DNA of 64,000 nucleotides from Alphaproteobacteria bacterium (GTDB taxonomy: Bacteria; Pseudomonadota; Alphaproteobacteria; Sphingomonadales; JAKSBY01). Below are positions 16,186 through 23,183 of the stretch, piece by piece. The position numbers were made by a program, and so were the translations under genes. Below the pieces are notes generated by a model. It was not told the origin of the DNA, did no database searches, and saw only the letters and a list, made by a program, of their open reading frames with translations. Position 1 is the first letter of the stretch. Every line of letters starts with the position of its first letter. The stretch is taken from NCBI GenBank assembly GCA_021774625.1, contig JAJFIV010000035.1, positions 62,001 to 126,000 on the forward strand. The letters run 5' to 3'.

Positions 16186-17139
16186 ATGCTTGATCGGATT
16201 CTCTATCCCGCCCTTACGGCTTATGATGCCGGGTATCTTCAGACGCCGGACGGACACGAGATTTATTATGAACGTTCCGGCAACCGGCAGGGCAAACCGG
16301 CGCTTTTCCTGCATGGCGGGCCGGGCGGCGGGACCTCGCCTCTGCAGCGGCGCTTTTTCGACCCCGAAATCTATAACATAATTCTGTTTGACCAGCGGGG
16401 ATGCGGCAAAAGCCGGCCCCATGCCTCGCTTGAAAATAATACGACCCGGCATTTGATCGACGATATCGAAGCGCTGCGCGGCCATCTGAATATTGACCGC
16501 TGGCAGATTTTTGGAGGCTCGTGGGGCTCGACGCTGGGCATCCTCTATGCGCAAGCGCATCCCGGGCGGGTGACGGAACTGATCCTGCGCGGCATTTTTC
16601 TGATGCGGCGGCAGGATATCGACTGGTATTACCGCTGCGGCGCCAGCCGCTTTTTTCCCGAAGCCTGGCAGGCATTCATTGCCCCGATCCCGGAGGAGGA
16701 GCGGGCGGATATGATTGCGGCTTATTACCGTCGTCTGACTGCGGATGACCCTGAAATTGTCGCCGCCGCCGCCCGGCCCTGGGCGATGTGGGAAGCGGAC
16801 ACTCTTGCCCTGCGGCCCGACAAAGGAGCGGCAGAGCAGATGAAAGCCCCGGCTTTCGCCAACGCCTTTGCCCGTATCGAGTGCCATTATTTTATCAATA
16901 AGGGCTTTTTGGAACGGGATAACCGGCTTCTGGAAGACGCACATAAAATCCGGGATATTCCAGCCGCGATCCTCCACGGCCGCTATGATGTGATCTGCCC
17001 GTCCGATTCAGCCTACCTGCTTCACAAAGCCCTGCCGCAATCCAGGCTTGAAATCATCGAAGCCTCCGGCCATTCCGCTTTCGAACCTGAAATTGCGCGG
17101 GCATTGGTGGCGGTGACGGACCGTTTCAAAAATCTTTGA
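16186..17139 (+). CDS. pip: Proline iminopeptidase
   Basis: Alpha/beta hydrolase, peptidase family S33, releasing N-terminal proline from peptides. The oxyanion region is FLHGGPGGGTSP, the nucleophile is in GGSWGSTLG, and the catalytic His in SGHSAFEP near the C-terminus. LFDQRGCGKSRPHASLENNTT is diagnostic for this family. Length 317 aa is standard. It is transcribed away from the Mla operon and ends 14 bases inside the convergent gene. Confidence 0.93.
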   Translation: MLDRILYPALTAYDAGYLQTPDGHEIYYERSGNRQGKPALFLHGGPGGGTSPLQRRFFDPEIYNIILFDQRGCGKSRPHASLENNTTRHLIDDIEALRGHLNIDRWQIFGGSWGSTLGILYAQAHPGRVTELILRGIFLMRRQDIDWYYRCGASRFFPEAWQAFIAPIPEEERADMIAAYYRRLTADDPEIVAAAARPWAMWEADTLALRPDKGAAEQMKAPAFANAFARIECHYFINKGFLERDNRLLEDAHKIRDIPAAILHGRYDVICPSDSAYLLHKALPQSRLEIIEASGHSAFEPEIARALVAVTDRFKNL

Positions 17140-17980
17140 CCAGCAGTTTCTTACAGGCCTCTATGGCGCTTTTCATCAGCCTTTCTGTGTGCCGGACAAA
17201 ATCCCCCGTCGCCGTCAGGGCGCTTGCCGTGCCAATTGCCGATGTAAAACCCTCGCGGTGCCAGATGCCGGGTTCGGGTAGGGTTGGCAGAATGTCCTGT
17301 TCCGGATAAGGCCAGGGGCTGACATAAAGATACGGTTCCTGATAATTGTCATCACCGGGTGAGAGCCCGGCGCCAATCGATCTTGCGTCCTCCCCGCCGC
17401 CTGGTTCCAGTTCAATCAATATGGCAATGTCAAAATGGTGAGGCCAGCACCGCACCGGCGACACCCCCTCCTGATTTTGGCGAATATCTTCCAGAAGCCC
17501 GGCAAAATAATCGAAATAGCGGCCAAGCTCCGTCAGCTCACCGGCCGATTTTCCGATCTGGTAGGCCGTCTGCCTTCCCGTTACATTGGCCGGCAATTCA
17601 TAGGGCAGCTTGCGGAATAATTTCTCGGAATCCAGTTCAAGAAGCGACAGCTGGCCGTGCAAATACTGGCCGATGTCGCCATCATTCAAACCGTCCAACA
17701 ACAAGGGGTCCGGGTCCTTTTCGTTATCCTGCCGGAGAGACAGCGAGAAATTATCAAAATTCAACCCCAGCCGGACATTGCCGGATTTTGCTGACGCTTT
17801 TCTGGTGACCAGCGCCCTGCGACCGGAATCCCATGCCAGCGCAGCATGGCTGTCGTCGCTTGCCGGATCAATATAGGCATACCCGAAACGGGCCAGCCAC
17901 TGTGCCGCCTGATGAGCAAAGAGGCGCGCCTGGACAAGATCACCGGGATTGACCGCGCCTATTTTATTATGATCCTGCAT
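17126..17980 (-). CDS. Conserved protein of unknown function
   Basis: A soluble 284-residue protein without signal peptide or membrane helix. Motifs visible are CWPHHFDIAILIELEPG and the Pro/Tyr-rich EPYLYVSPWPYPEQ. The first resembles the WPHxFD signature of DUF5996-type proteins, but I cannot assign it firmly. I start at the ATG at 17980 because GGAG lies six bases upstream; longer frames run into the upstream membrane protein gene. It overlaps that gene's 3' end by 14 bases, so they are probably co-translated. Confidence 0.75.
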   Translation of the reverse strand: MQDHNKIGAVNPGDLVQARLFAHQAAQWLARFGYAYIDPASDDSHAALAWDSGRRALVTRKASAKSGNVRLGLNFDNFSLSLRQDNEKDPDPLLLDGLNDGDIGQYLHGQLSLLELDSEKLFRKLPYELPANVTGRQTAYQIGKSAGELTELGRYFDYFAGLLEDIRQNQEGVSPVRCWPHHFDIAILIELEPGGGEDARSIGAGLSPGDDNYQEPYLYVSPWPYPEQDILPTLPEPGIWHREGFTSAIGTASALTATGDFVRHTERLMKSAIEACKKLLVKDF

Positions 17981-18434
17981 GGGATGCTCCATCTGAAATT
18001 TCTTTCTCATTGCTTTTTTGCCGGGTGGGGCGATGACGCTCCGCCCCCTCAATCTGTTCAAAAATAACATCGGCAGAACGCAGGGCCTCCAGCAGCAATT
18101 GCAAAATAGCAAAAAGCACCGCCAGCACCGCGATAAATATCAAACTTACAATAATAACGGTCAGATCGGCCTGAAGCCAGATATCAAACACGGCCAGCGC
18201 CGCCCCGAGAGCAATCAGCGCAAGGGCGCTGTAAAGAGCGATGAAGGCCCTGCGAAACCGGAGTACGCGTCCTTTCATTATTTTGAGATAATTCTTGTTA
18301 CACCCTATTTTCCCCTGGCTCACCAATTGGATCTGATTTTCCAGCTGCTGAAACCGGAAGGCGGAGGAAAGCACCAGCAGCGCGATCCCGGGGGCAACGA
18401 GAAAACCCAGCATGATATGCGTAAAATCAGGCAT
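17967..18434 (-). CDS. DUF2721-like integral membrane protein
   Basis: A 155-residue protein with one N-terminal hydrophobic segment (IMLGFLVAPGIALLVLSSAF), a basic loop (KIMKGRVLRFRRAF), and two more segments separated by a short turn, ending in a charged soluble tail. This layout matches DUF2721 proteins, whose function is unknown. Coupled to the downstream 284-residue protein. It starts about 15 bases after the stop of the Rieske-ThDP gene, so the three may form one operon. Confidence 0.7.
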   Translation of the reverse strand: MPDFTHIMLGFLVAPGIALLVLSSAFRFQQLENQIQLVSQGKIGCNKNYLKIMKGRVLRFRRAFIALYSALALIALGAALAVFDIWLQADLTVIIVSLIFIAVLAVLFAILQLLLEALRSADVIFEQIEGAERHRPTRQKSNEKEISDGASHAGS

Positions 18435-18449: not shown

Positions 18450-20432
18450 CTAGACCAGTGAAACGTCTGTCATAAATTCTACAATCGCCGGGCCGTCATG
18501 CGCCAGAGCCGCCTTGACGGCGGCGTCGATATCCCGGGACTTTGTCACTTTCCAGCCCTGGCCGCCGCATATCTTGGCAAAGGCGGCAAAACTCGGATTA
18601 TGAAGCGTGGTCTGCCAGACCGGCCATTCGCCTGCCATCTGCTCCTTTGAAATTTTCCCCAGTTCGCAATTATTCAGAAGAAAATGAGTGATGTTCATTT
18701 TATATTTAACCGCTGTCGTAAATTCCGCGAGATACTGGCCAAACCCGCCGTCACCGCTGACCGAGATGACCGGGCGGCCCTTATGCGGGCCTTCGGTCTG
18801 CGTTGCCGCCCACGCGCCCATGGCCGCCGGAAAGGAAAATCCGATTGAACCCAGATAACCCGACATCAGAACGGACTGACGCTGGCATTCAAAATAACGG
18901 CCAAAGGAATAGGTGTTGTTGCCGACGTCAACCGCAATGACCGCATCCTCAGGCACAAGCCGTGAAAGGGCATCGAAAATGATGGCGGAATTCAGTCCCT
19001 TGCCGCGGTCATCAGAAAGCCGGCTTTTCTTTTCACTGCGCCAAATCTTCCAGCGGCCGGCAAGTTCTTCGCGCTGATCAATCGCCGGAAGGTCTGCCGG
19101 CAAATTATCTTTTATCAGATCCGCAGTGACCCCGATTTCGCCCCAGACCGGCACAGTCACCGGATGGCCCTTGCCGAGATGATTGGGGTCGAAATCCACC
19201 TGGATGGTGGGTTTTTTAGGCTCGATTCCGGTATGGTTGGAGAAGGACGCCCCGAAAACGAGCTGCAAATCCGATTCATTCATGAACCAGCTTGCAATCG
19301 GCGTACCGGACCGGCCGAGCACGCCTGCGGCCAGCGGGTGGCTGTCCGGAATCTGGCCCTTGCCTTTAAATGTCGTGACAATGGGCGCCCGTAGTTTTTC
19401 AGCCAGCGCAATCACCTGATCCATGCGTTCCCGGGCGCCATAACCGACAATGATCAAAGGCCGTTTGGCTTTCTGGATCTGGACAATGGCTGCATTTACT
19501 GATTCTTTTGATGGCGCTATGCGGTTGTCGGGCATCCGCCCTTCAGGGCCGGTGGCTTTTGCCCCCTCGACCGCAGGAATAACCTGAATCTCGTCGGGAA
19601 AGATGAGGGAGGAAACCTGGCGGTTGGTGATTGCCTTTTTCAGCGCCAAAGTCATAAGTTCCGCGTGGCTGCTGTCATTCAACACTACATGATTAAAGTC
19701 GGATACCGGCGCAAAGGCCGCTTTCAGATCCGCCTCCTGGAACGCGCCGGGCCCCATAACCTGGGTATTTATCTGACCCGAAAGCGCCAGAAGGGGTGCC
19801 CGGTCAACCTTCGCATCCCAAAGCCCGGTCAAAAGATTGGTTGCCCCCGGCCCGGCAATGGAAAAACAGGCCGCGGGTTTTCCCGTCAGTTTGGCGTAGC
19901 CGGAACAGGCGAAAGACGCCGCGCCTTCGTGGCGGACGCCAATATAGGTCAGTTTACCCTTGGCTTCCTGGCGCCTGAGAGCTTCCGCAAGCCCAAGATT
20001 GGAATGGCCGACAATGCCAAAAACATGGGTGATGCCCCAGTTGACCATTGTTTCCGCCATGACATCGCTGATGGTCCGGGGGCTTTCCGGTTCCGGCTCG
20101 ATGCCGACATAAATCCCGTCTTCGCGCACTTCGACCGGGAACATCTGCTGTCCGGCGTCTTCGTGCCCGCCCGGCGGCTTTCCGGTCAAGGGGTGAAAAT
20201 CCCAGCCATGCCAGGGACAGCGCAGCCAGCATTCCTCATTTTCCCCTATTTCGATGGCTCCTTCACCCAGCGGGCCGCCCTGATGGGGGCAGTGATTGTC
20301 CATTGCCGCAAATTGGCCATCGAAATGGACCAGGGCAAGAAACTTCGTCCCGGCGGTGACAGTTATGACCCGCCCTTCACCCAGTTCATCGCGCGCGGCC
20401 ACCCGAAACCATTCTTTTTTGTCCTCTGCCAC
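18450..20432 (-). CDS. Rieske [2Fe-2S] domain fused to ThDP-dependent enzyme
   Basis: Residues 1-110 form a Rieske domain: cluster ligands C48, H50 in HCPHQGGPLGEG and C72, H75 in RCPWHGWDF. Residues ~118-660 are a complete acetolactate synthase/pyruvate oxidase-type enzyme: the N-terminal Pyr domain with the catalytic Glu (E169) in VRHEGAASFA, a central domain, and the C-terminal PP domain with VSGDGGFGQYLAEF and a later NN. The start is a GTG at 20432 with AAAGGGA about eight bases upstream; an ATG at 20468 would add 12 residues. Likely a decarboxylase or oxidase of a 2-oxoacid using a built-in electron relay; substrate unknown. Confidence 0.88.
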   Translation of the reverse strand: MAEDKKEWFRVAARDELGEGRVITVTAGTKFLALVHFDGQFAAMDNHCPHQGGPLGEGAIEIGENEECWLRCPWHGWDFHPLTGKPPGGHEDAGQQMFPVEVREDGIYVGIEPEPESPRTISDVMAETMVNWGITHVFGIVGHSNLGLAEALRRQEAKGKLTYIGVRHEGAASFACSGYAKLTGKPAACFSIAGPGATNLLTGLWDAKVDRAPLLALSGQINTQVMGPGAFQEADLKAAFAPVSDFNHVVLNDSSHAELMTLALKKAITNRQVSSLIFPDEIQVIPAVEGAKATGPEGRMPDNRIAPSKESVNAAIVQIQKAKRPLIIVGYGARERMDQVIALAEKLRAPIVTTFKGKGQIPDSHPLAAGVLGRSGTPIASWFMNESDLQLVFGASFSNHTGIEPKKPTIQVDFDPNHLGKGHPVTVPVWGEIGVTADLIKDNLPADLPAIDQREELAGRWKIWRSEKKSRLSDDRGKGLNSAIIFDALSRLVPEDAVIAVDVGNNTYSFGRYFECQRQSVLMSGYLGSIGFSFPAAMGAWAATQTEGPHKGRPVISVSGDGGFGQYLAEFTTAVKYKMNITHFLLNNCELGKISKEQMAGEWPVWQTTLHNPSFAAFAKICGGQGWKVTKSRDIDAAVKAALAHDGPAIVEFMTDVSLV

Positions 20433-20641: not shown

Positions 20642-20770
20642 ATGATCAGAGCCATCATCACGACCGGCGAAGACGATGCCGCCCGGCTTGTCGCGGCGAT
20701 GTTGAGTGACACGCCCGTTATTGATGGTCTGAAGTCATTGACGGACGGCATTGGCGGCCGGGAAAAATAA
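20642..20770 (+). CDS. Possible 42-residue small protein
   Basis: An ORF from ATG 20642 to the TAA at 20768-20770, with GGAG eight bases upstream. Its stop overlaps the AAGGAG ribosome site of the patatin-like gene, a layout seen for coupled genes. The peptide has a mixed hydrophobic/acidic make-up with no recognisable motif. It could be a leader ORF or chance; I do not recognise it. Confidence 0.4.
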   Translation: MIRAIITTGEDDAARLVAAMLSDTPVIDGLKSLTDGIGGREK

Positions 20771-20786
20771 GGAGCGGGTCCAGCGT

Positions 20787-23183
20787 ATGCGGGAAAAGGA
20801 ACTCAGGCTCGCCCTTGTCTGCTTTGGCGGCGTATCGCTTGCCGTTTACATGCACGGGGTTACCAAGGAAATCCAAAAGCTCGCCCGGGCATCCAAGATT
20901 TACCATGCCGCCCCTGACAGACCTCCCCGTGAAGGTTACGGGGAAATGAATGATGATCCGGCCCGCGAAACTGATACCGAGGCCGTCTATTTCGATTTTC
21001 TGCGCGAAATAGGGAAGTCTCTTGATTTTCGTATCATTGTCGACGTGGTCGCCGGGGCGTCCGCGGGGGGTATCAATGGTATTTTCCTGGCTAGGGCGCT
21101 GGCTCATGACCTTCCTCTCGACAGTCACCGGAAAATGTGGCTGGAGCGCGCCGACGTCCTGAAACTGATGGACCAGAACGCGATCGCAGGGCGCTGGAGC
21201 AAGATTTATATGCAGCCATTTTTATGGCTGATGAACTGGCGGCGTTTTGGCCGGGTTGCTCCCGATATCGAAACCCGCACAAAGCTTTCGATCTTTCTGC
21301 GCTCCCGCTGGTTCAAGCCGCCCTTTTCCGGCGATTATATGACAAAAATTTTGTTGGATGCCTGCGAAAGCATGGGCGAGGGCAGGACAGAGGCCTCCTC
21401 CCTTCTGCCTTCTGGTCAAAGGCTCGATCTTTTTGTCAGTGTGACGGATTTTTATGGTTATGGCGATTCCATCCCTCTGCATGATCCGCCAACCATCCGG
21501 GAGCGGGAACACCGTCATGTTCTGAAATTCGTCTATCGCAGACCGGCGGGGCAGGAGGCGCAAAGCGAGTTTAACCGCAATTATATACCTGGCCTGGTGT
21601 TTGCCGCCCGGGCAACCTCCTCCTTTCCCGGGGCTTTTCCGCCGGTACAGATATCAGAAATCGACCGGGTATTAAAAAAGCAGAATAAAAAATGGCCAAC
21701 CCGGGAAGACTTCCTCGCCAGCAAGTTTGAGCCGCTGCATGCTGCGGGGGATAATCCACTCACCACCTCCTTTATCGACGGCAGTGTGGTCAATAACAAA
21801 CCATTTGCCGAAGCCATAAGCGCGTTAAGCGGCCGCCCGGCGCATCGCGAGGTTGATCGCCGCATCGTCTATATTGATCCCAATCCTGACCGCAGCATTC
21901 CGAAGCCTGGGGCAAAACCGCCCGGTTTTTTTCGCACCCTTCGCGGCGCTCTTTCTGATATTCCCCGGAATGAGCCGATCCGCGACGAGCTTGCCTGGAT
22001 CAACACTTTCAGCAACAGGGTCAGACGGGTGCGCCAGGTCTTCGAAAGCACCCGTCCGCATATTACGTCCCTGGTGCAGGGGTTGATTGATGCCGCCGAT
22101 ATGCGGGCGCCCAACCAGGACACTTTTAAAAAATGGCGCTCGGACGCCAACACCGCCGCGGCCCAGCAGGCCGGTTACGCCTATTCGAGCTATGTGCATC
22201 TCAAAATTATGGGGGTCCTGGAAAGCCTGACCAAGCTGATTGCCGACCAGTGCGGCTGTATCCATGATTTAAGCAGGCGGCGGGAACTCAGCATCATGCT
22301 GGAACAATGGGCGCATGATCAGGGAATACTCCCCGTCGGCAACGTGCCGGCCGATCACGAAATTATTGATCCTGACAAACAATTTCCCTGGGTGCGGTTT
22401 TTACGCAGCTTTGATGTGAATTTCCGTATTCGCCGGATCCGGCTGGTGATCCGCCGTCTCAACGAACTTTATCACGAAATCCCCGTTGGTGAAGCCTGCA
22501 TCGTTGATTCCGATTGTCTGAATGAATTTAAAACGACCCTCTATGAAATCCTTGATCTGTTTGAGCAAAGATGGCGCCGCGATTTTCATCAGAAGGTCAT
22601 CGGCGGCCTAGCGCAGGCATTGCTGGAAAATAAGGACCTCAGTGTTCTGAATGACCTTGTGGAAAAGACCGGAAACAATATGACTCTGAAAGAGCTGGAC
22701 CTGAAGATCGATGAGATTTTCAGCGTCATGGCGCTTAATTATCTGCCCGAAGTAGCACGCAAGGAACTGATTCCGATTTATATCGGTTTCGCTTTTTTTG
22801 ATGTTCTGACCTTTCCGACCATGCAGTGGGAGGAAGTCAGCGAGCTTGACGAAATCAATGTCGACCGTATCAGCCCTGAAGATGCCACCGCAATTCGTAA
22901 AGGCGGCGCGAAGGCGACATTGCGCGGCATCCGGCTCGGTCATTTTGGCGCTTTTTTCAGCCGGAAGGACCGGGAGAATGATTATCTTTGGGGGCGGCTG
23001 CATGCGACGGACCGGCTGGTGGATATCGTTATGAGTTCGGTCCGGGAAAAATCAGACGTCGATATTGACGTGGATAATTTCAAGAGGCGTCTCTTTCACG
23101 CCATTCTGGATACGGAAAAAGATCACCTCCCCAGTTGTGAGGGTTTGATCGCCTCCCTGCGCCGCGAAATCGGCGCAGCGTAA
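20787..23183 (+). CDS. Patatin-like phospholipase (TIGR03607/DUF3376 type)
   Basis: A 798-residue protein with a patatin fold at the N-terminus: the G-rich LVCFGGVSLAVYMHGVTKEI segment (oxyanion hole), the nucleophile S92 in GASAGG and the catalytic D331 in FIDGSVVNNKPF. The long C-terminal half is helical and resembles DUF3376 of the patatin-related TIGR03607 family. It would hydrolyse lipid acyl esters. I start at the ATG at 20787, with AAGGAG 12 bases upstream. The gene converges on recQ. Confidence 0.85.
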   Translation: MREKELRLALVCFGGVSLAVYMHGVTKEIQKLARASKIYHAAPDRPPREGYGEMNDDPARETDTEAVYFDFLREIGKSLDFRIIVDVVAGASAGGINGIFLARALAHDLPLDSHRKMWLERADVLKLMDQNAIAGRWSKIYMQPFLWLMNWRRFGRVAPDIETRTKLSIFLRSRWFKPPFSGDYMTKILLDACESMGEGRTEASSLLPSGQRLDLFVSVTDFYGYGDSIPLHDPPTIREREHRHVLKFVYRRPAGQEAQSEFNRNYIPGLVFAARATSSFPGAFPPVQISEIDRVLKKQNKKWPTREDFLASKFEPLHAAGDNPLTTSFIDGSVVNNKPFAEAISALSGRPAHREVDRRIVYIDPNPDRSIPKPGAKPPGFFRTLRGALSDIPRNEPIRDELAWINTFSNRVRRVRQVFESTRPHITSLVQGLIDAADMRAPNQDTFKKWRSDANTAAAQQAGYAYSSYVHLKIMGVLESLTKLIADQCGCIHDLSRRRELSIMLEQWAHDQGILPVGNVPADHEIIDPDKQFPWVRFLRSFDVNFRIRRIRLVIRRLNELYHEIPVGEACIVDSDCLNEFKTTLYEILDLFEQRWRRDFHQKVIGGLAQALLENKDLSVLNDLVEKTGNNMTLKELDLKIDEIFSVMALNYLPEVARKELIPIYIGFAFFDVLTFPTMQWEEVSELDEINVDRISPEDATAIRKGGAKATLRGIRLGHFGAFFSRKDRENDYLWGRLHATDRLVDIVMSSVREKSDVDIDVDNFKRRLFHAILDTEKDHLPSCEGLIASLRREIGAA

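Follow-up and report, generated by a model that had tools for sequence, protein, structure and literature searches.

What a Rieske iron-sulfur domain does on a ThDP enzyme is the question raised by a gene in the window, by which is meant here the whole 64,000-nucleotide stretch of alphaproteobacterial DNA that was analysed. The known electron acceptors of ThDP enzymes are flavin, quinone, O2, lipoate and [4Fe-4S] clusters of the ferredoxin type, and we know of no ThDP enzyme with a built-in Rieske exit; nor was any description of the function of a Rieske-ThDP fusion found in the open-access papers that were searched.

The gene and its family

The original prediction was of a Rieske domain joined to a complete ThDP enzyme, and this is borne out by a single intact, uninterrupted frame of 660 residues in which every domain scores above its Pfam cut-off. 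The gene, which is preceded by a good ribosome site, its domains and the two genes downstream are laid out as follows.

18450..20432, minus strand: Rieske-ThDP fusion gene, GTG start at 20432, stop at 18450, 660 aa
20440..20447, minus strand: ribosome-binding site GAAAGGGA, 7 nt 5' of the GTG start
20085..20414, minus strand: Rieske [2Fe-2S] domain, residues 7-116 (PF00355)
20283..20291, minus strand: Rieske box 1, C48-P-H50
20208..20219, minus strand: Rieske box 2, C72-P-W-H75
19722..20075, minus strand: ThDP PYR domain, residues 120-237 (PF02776), with H143, E169 and, near its end, F231-Q232 (mapped by alignment)
19122..19496, minus strand: middle nucleotide-binding domain of FAD/ADP type, residues 313-437 (PF00205)
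18474..18929, minus strand: ThDP PP domain, residues 502-653 (PF02775), with the GDGG...N motif and K593
17967..18434, minus strand: DUF2721-like membrane protein, adjacent to the fusion gene, Pfam score below cut-off
17126..18112, minus strand: DUF5996-like conserved unknown, 328 aa

The Rieske match (PF00355, residues 7-86) reaches 57.6 bits against a cut-off of 20.3, and TPP_enzyme_N (120-237), TPP_enzyme_M (313-437) and TPP_enzyme_C (502-653) reach about 113 bits each, far over theirs. The catalytic Glu is E169 and the metal/ThDP motif is G560-D561-G562-G563 ... N588, such that the protein has the PYR, middle and PP domains, the catalytic Glu and the GDG-N motif of the DC/POX-type ThDP superfamily.

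In total, 92 full-length members were collected, 53-78% identical to the window protein. They come from Pseudomonadota, Acidobacteriota, Myxococcota, Nitrospirota and Cyanobacteriota, from haloarchaea and from a plasmid of a mycobacterium. Scanning species genomes yielded 80 loci, including some in Poribacteria and KSB1, and the matches listed were all at least 64% identical and nearly all full-length, while homologues on plasmids are 61-63% identical in haloarchaea and 53% in Mycobacteroides. The window genome itself carries one copy, its next ThDP enzyme being 35% identical and without a Rieske domain; among 60 relatives, full-length homologues (61-78%) occur in five, and below a gap stand non-fused enzymes at 35%. 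Across the window genome, the relatives and the plasmids searched, fused proteins are 53-78% identical to the window protein, and no non-fused ThDP enzyme exceeds 35%. Relatives in which the two parts are separate genes were not found. Since full-length homologues of the same architecture are present in more than 80 independent assemblies, chance or a misjoined contig is excluded, and the fusion is genuine. The architecture is real and conserved, and apparently undescribed; in the annotated records examined the family is named only 'thiamine pyrophosphate-binding protein'.

The conservation extends to the cofactor sites. The Rieske ligands had been predicted as C48, H50, C72 and H75, and this numbering is exact; they are invariant in all 92 aligned members, with no case of ligand decay, as are E169, F231, Q232, H143, K593, E597 and W606. 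D561 is likewise kept in 92/92, and N588 in 89/92, being Asp in three haloarchaea. This pattern suggests that both parts are functional, as was originally thought from the one sequence. On the alignment, H143 and K593 are residues specific to the family, which is, overall, widespread and strongly conserved.

In a quick tree against eight non-fused sequences, with few outgroups on long branches, the ThDP parts of the fusions form one clade. Rieske and ThDP divergences correlate with r = 0.54, as expected for a fusion inherited mostly in one piece. Among the well-aligned Rieske domains a sole one is oddly placed, that of locus L010. The protein in question (L010:814-3423(+), the same as L137:5454-8063(+)) is an 870-aa CDGSH-Fer4_19-CDGSH-Rieske-ThDP chain, a single ThDP enzyme that is predicted to bear four Fe-S sites.

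The ThDP core and the Rieske centre

Of known enzymes, PoxB and PQO, the pyruvate oxidases linked to quinone, come closest to the ThDP part. The best matches of a 53-sequence profile are Escherichia coli PoxB (303 bits), Lactobacillus plantarum POX (LpPOX, 263) and Corynebacterium glutamicum PQO (257), followed by acetolactate synthases, and the AlphaFold model of the window protein (pLDDT 88.8, pTM 0.86) superposes on the structures of PoxB (3EYA/3EY9) and PQO (9EV3-9EV6) with TM scores of 0.89-0.92, at ca 26% identity in the structural alignment. Shared with these enzymes are the ThDP core fold, the PYR/middle/PP order, the catalytic Glu, the GDG..N motif and the FQE loop. The fusion differs from them in its additional N-terminal Rieske domain and in the absence of the PoxB-type C-terminal lipid- and membrane-binding segment, the protein stopping at a residue that matches approximately PoxB 530 of 572, which is where the tail begins.

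Closer inspection of the active site reveals both likeness and difference. Of the residues with functional roles in LpPOX, the fusion keeps the counterparts of S36, E59, F121, Q122, I480 and E483, with R264 matched by R374 in 91/92. On the other hand, G35 is replaced by His143 and F479 by Lys593, both invariant in 92/92, and V265 by Ser375; with respect to PoxB and PQO the changes are from Asp/Gly to His143 and from Phe to Lys593. In other words, because an invariant Lys stands for F479 and an invariant His for G35, the predicted active site is unlike that of the pyruvate oxidases. The NCBIfam equivalog cut-offs are clearly missed (NF006377, 384.5 against 742 bits; NF006591, 291.3 against 792 bits), and the protein is therefore POX-like but no pyruvate oxidase by definition.

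For the Rieske part, the closest solved relatives are Rieske ferredoxins. The domain shares with CarAc, the naphthalene dioxygenase ferredoxin and RFESD (3D89) the C-x-H ... C-x2-H ligands and the lack of disulfide cysteines, while differing in that theirs is free or in an oxygenase and that here it is joined to a ThDP enzyme. The two cluster loops, CPHQGG and CPWHGW, contain no further Cys, and a high-potential centre of the bc1/b6f kind was ruled out, the extra disulfide Cys pair being missing from both. Rieske centres without these cysteines are ferredoxin-like and of low potential, such that a low-potential centre of ferredoxin/oxygenase type is to be expected from the loops.

Partner genes and an exchange of Rieske for CDGSH

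The genomic surroundings were assessed in full-flank loci, defined as those with at least 4 kb present on both sides of the fusion gene (n = 53). A Rieske-FMN protein of the glutamate synthase type (Rieske-GltS, PF00355 + PF01645) occurs in 31/53, a membrane protein that resembles ferric reductases and ends in a Rieske domain (FRD-Rieske) in 27/53, a one-helix protein with invariant Cys171, His184, Cys187 and Cys191 (TM259) in 25/53 and a cation/proton antiporter in 19/53. Whole-genome searches found full-length Rieske-GltS in 17 of 20 carrier genomes from several phyla, often adjoining the fusion, and FRD-Rieske in 16 of the 29 genome entries searched (two entries being the same genome). In a phylum sample of 299 genomes, Rieske-GltS was present in 4/5 carriers against 7/294 non-carriers (Fisher p 5e-6, uncorrected for kinship), and in the four co-carriers it lies within 5 kb of the fusion. 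Fusion, antiporter and Rieske-GltS are also found together on an archaeal plasmid. A substrate could not be read from the neighbours: genes for K+ or Na+/proton antiporters, DUF1622, ECF sigma/anti-sigma factors and an AMP ligase recur, with no common pathway.

Simple hydropathy and K/R counts predict for FRD-Rieske five or six helices with the Rieske end in the cytoplasm, and for TM259, the Cys/His protein, an outside domain. The Rieske domain of Rieske-GltS is clearly a separate lineage; those of FRD-Rieske and the ThDP fusion are also split, with weaker support. FRD-Rieske, which has been noted before as a domain combination (PMC3591440), bears a distant similarity to MsrQ/MamZ, and it is paired with TM259 in 31 of the 33 family loci that carry it (L031, L034, L044, L065 and others; for example L044:1690-2751(-)). 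TM259 (26 sequences; for example L031:2572-3348(-)) has an invariant C-x12-H-x2-C-x3-C motif and no Pfam match, and its modelled structure, with OB-like barrels, has no meaningful match in the PDB.

In many other Pseudomonadota (L113-L132) a GltS domain with 61-68% identity to that of Rieske-GltS carries a CDGSH [2Fe-2S] domain in place of the Rieske. This CDGSH-GltS protein is the type 5 CISD (PMC3174974), which resembles the window protein in carrying an N-terminal His-ligated [2Fe-2S] domain on a cofactor enzyme; the window protein differs from it in having a ThDP core and a Rieske domain, and no CDGSH. Two unrelated Fe-S domains thus exchange on one GltS enzyme. Because one His-ligated [2Fe-2S] fold replaces another at the same place, the swap on the FMN partner supports an electron-transfer role, whereas a structural role for the exchanged domains would find it hard to explain. 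Together with the linkage to other Rieske fusions, it provides a case in which one can test whether His-ligated [2Fe-2S] modules are interchangeable within a single network of electron transfer.

In the nearest relative of the window genome (G001) the whole partner set adjoins the fusion, but a search of the window genome recovered neither FRD-Rieske nor Rieske-GltS, the only GltS-domain match being 39% identical and having a membrane N-terminus. Rieske-GltS is also missing from two cyanobacterial carrier genomes; the partners are therefore not obligatory, and the enzyme can work without the module. As for the two downstream genes, which had been proposed to belong with the fusion, the suggestion gains support for one of them. 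The DUF5996-like protein has homologues next to the fusion, or next to the partners, in some 13 further loci (its true start probably lies inside the frame 17126..18112), whereas the DUF2721-like protein, without a homologue in the collected fusion neighbourhoods, was rejected as a partner and is probably not part of the system. Upstream, an 810-aa patatin-like protein (TIGR03607, DUF3376; window 20751-23183, plus strand) is transcribed divergently, and elsewhere in the genome (G000:C33; L005:250-1947(-)) there is a protein of 566 aa that begins with a Rieske domain and whose C-terminal part has no Pfam match.

A proposed electron flow and its alternatives

The best explanation as a whole, to which we attach roughly even confidence, is that the fusion protein is a cytoplasmic, self-contained oxidoreductase. 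In this model, drawn from homology and context, the POX-like core would decarboxylate a 2-oxoacid to give the ThDP carbanion/enamine, two electrons would be taken up, and these would leave singly through the N-terminal low-potential Rieske cluster. The Rieske domain would, in effect, be a stand-in for the membrane-binding tail and quinone contact of PoxB and PQO. Consistent with oxidative chemistry, the best profile and structure matches (PoxB, LpPOX and PQO) are all redox ThDP enzymes, and the reading is strengthened by the clustering with Rieske-fused redox proteins and by the Rieske/CDGSH swap. An oxidative decarboxylation with direct electron delivery to the Rieske centre had been put forward at the outset; the oxidative part and the Rieske exit are retained in this model, but 'direct' is put in doubt by the FAD/ADP-type middle domain that the protein keeps, on account of which an FAD probably lies between ThDP and Rieske.

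The intermediate step deserves attention, since a flavin-free route has a precedent. Pyruvate:ferredoxin oxidoreductase is a ThDP enzyme that hands electrons to an Fe-S centre within the same protein complex; it differs from the fusion in its domain arrangement, its [4Fe-4S] clusters and its dependence on CoA, and it did not come up in any of the searches. By analogy, the middle domain might bind ADP or nothing, with the ThDP radical or enamine passing electrons straight to the Rieske. Taken alone, this domain scores 52-58 bits with FAD enzymes and, close behind, 48 bits with the ADP-binding 2-hydroxyacyl-CoA lyases and oxalyl-CoA decarboxylases, and the position of LpPOX Phe479 is the invariant Lys. 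Against this, G330-x-G332-A, T354-x-K-x-K-G, R374 and D413 are near-invariant and align with the flavin segment of LpPOX, and the closest full-length relatives are FAD enzymes. A flavin-free enzyme accordingly seems rather unlikely, and FAD in the middle domain is the probable carrier.

It is also regarded as unlikely that the enzyme is a non-oxidative, acetolactate-synthase-like carboligase or decarboxylase whose activity is switched by the Rieske cluster, acting either as a sensor of redox state or oxygen or as part of the structure. In acetohydroxyacid synthase FAD is indeed retained although no redox role has been established for it (PMC5298238), His143 and Lys593 mark a distinct active site, and the ECF sigma/anti-sigma genes in some neighbourhoods suggest stress control; the repeated co-occurrence with Rieske-fused redox enzymes and the exchange of Rieske for CDGSH on the partner nevertheless point to electron flow rather than to sensing. 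The direction of that flow could in principle be reversed, with a reductase supplying the ThDP/flavin site through the Rieske domain and a reduction, such as reductive acylation or carboxylation, taking place there. Rieske ferredoxins do usually deliver electrons to enzymes, but no dedicated reductase recurs beside the fusion gene and the ThDP-enamine chemistry of the closest relatives is oxidative, which makes such a reversal highly improbable.

If 2-oxoacid oxidation with a Rieske exit is accepted, the acceptor would depend on the genome. Where the full gene set is present, it may tentatively be placed at FRD-Rieske and then at the periplasmic Cys/His protein, with the Rieske-FMN-[3Fe-4S] GltS on the same electron pool, an assignment that we consider somewhat more likely to fail than to hold; the window organism, where these partners are missing, must use a different acceptor, either soluble or linked to quinone. 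A larger proposal, and a more doubtful one, is that the fusion belongs to a redox system not described before, whose ThDP, FMN/[3Fe-4S] and heme membrane proteins, with separately acquired Rieske domains, would exchange electrons from Rieske to Rieske and drive them through the membrane to the periplasmic Cys/His protein. Finally, a gene for an MsrA-like peptide methionine sulfoxide reductase (L142:8727-9242(+)) adjoins Rieske-GltS in one genome that yielded no ThDP fusion, which may be a hint of use under oxidative stress.
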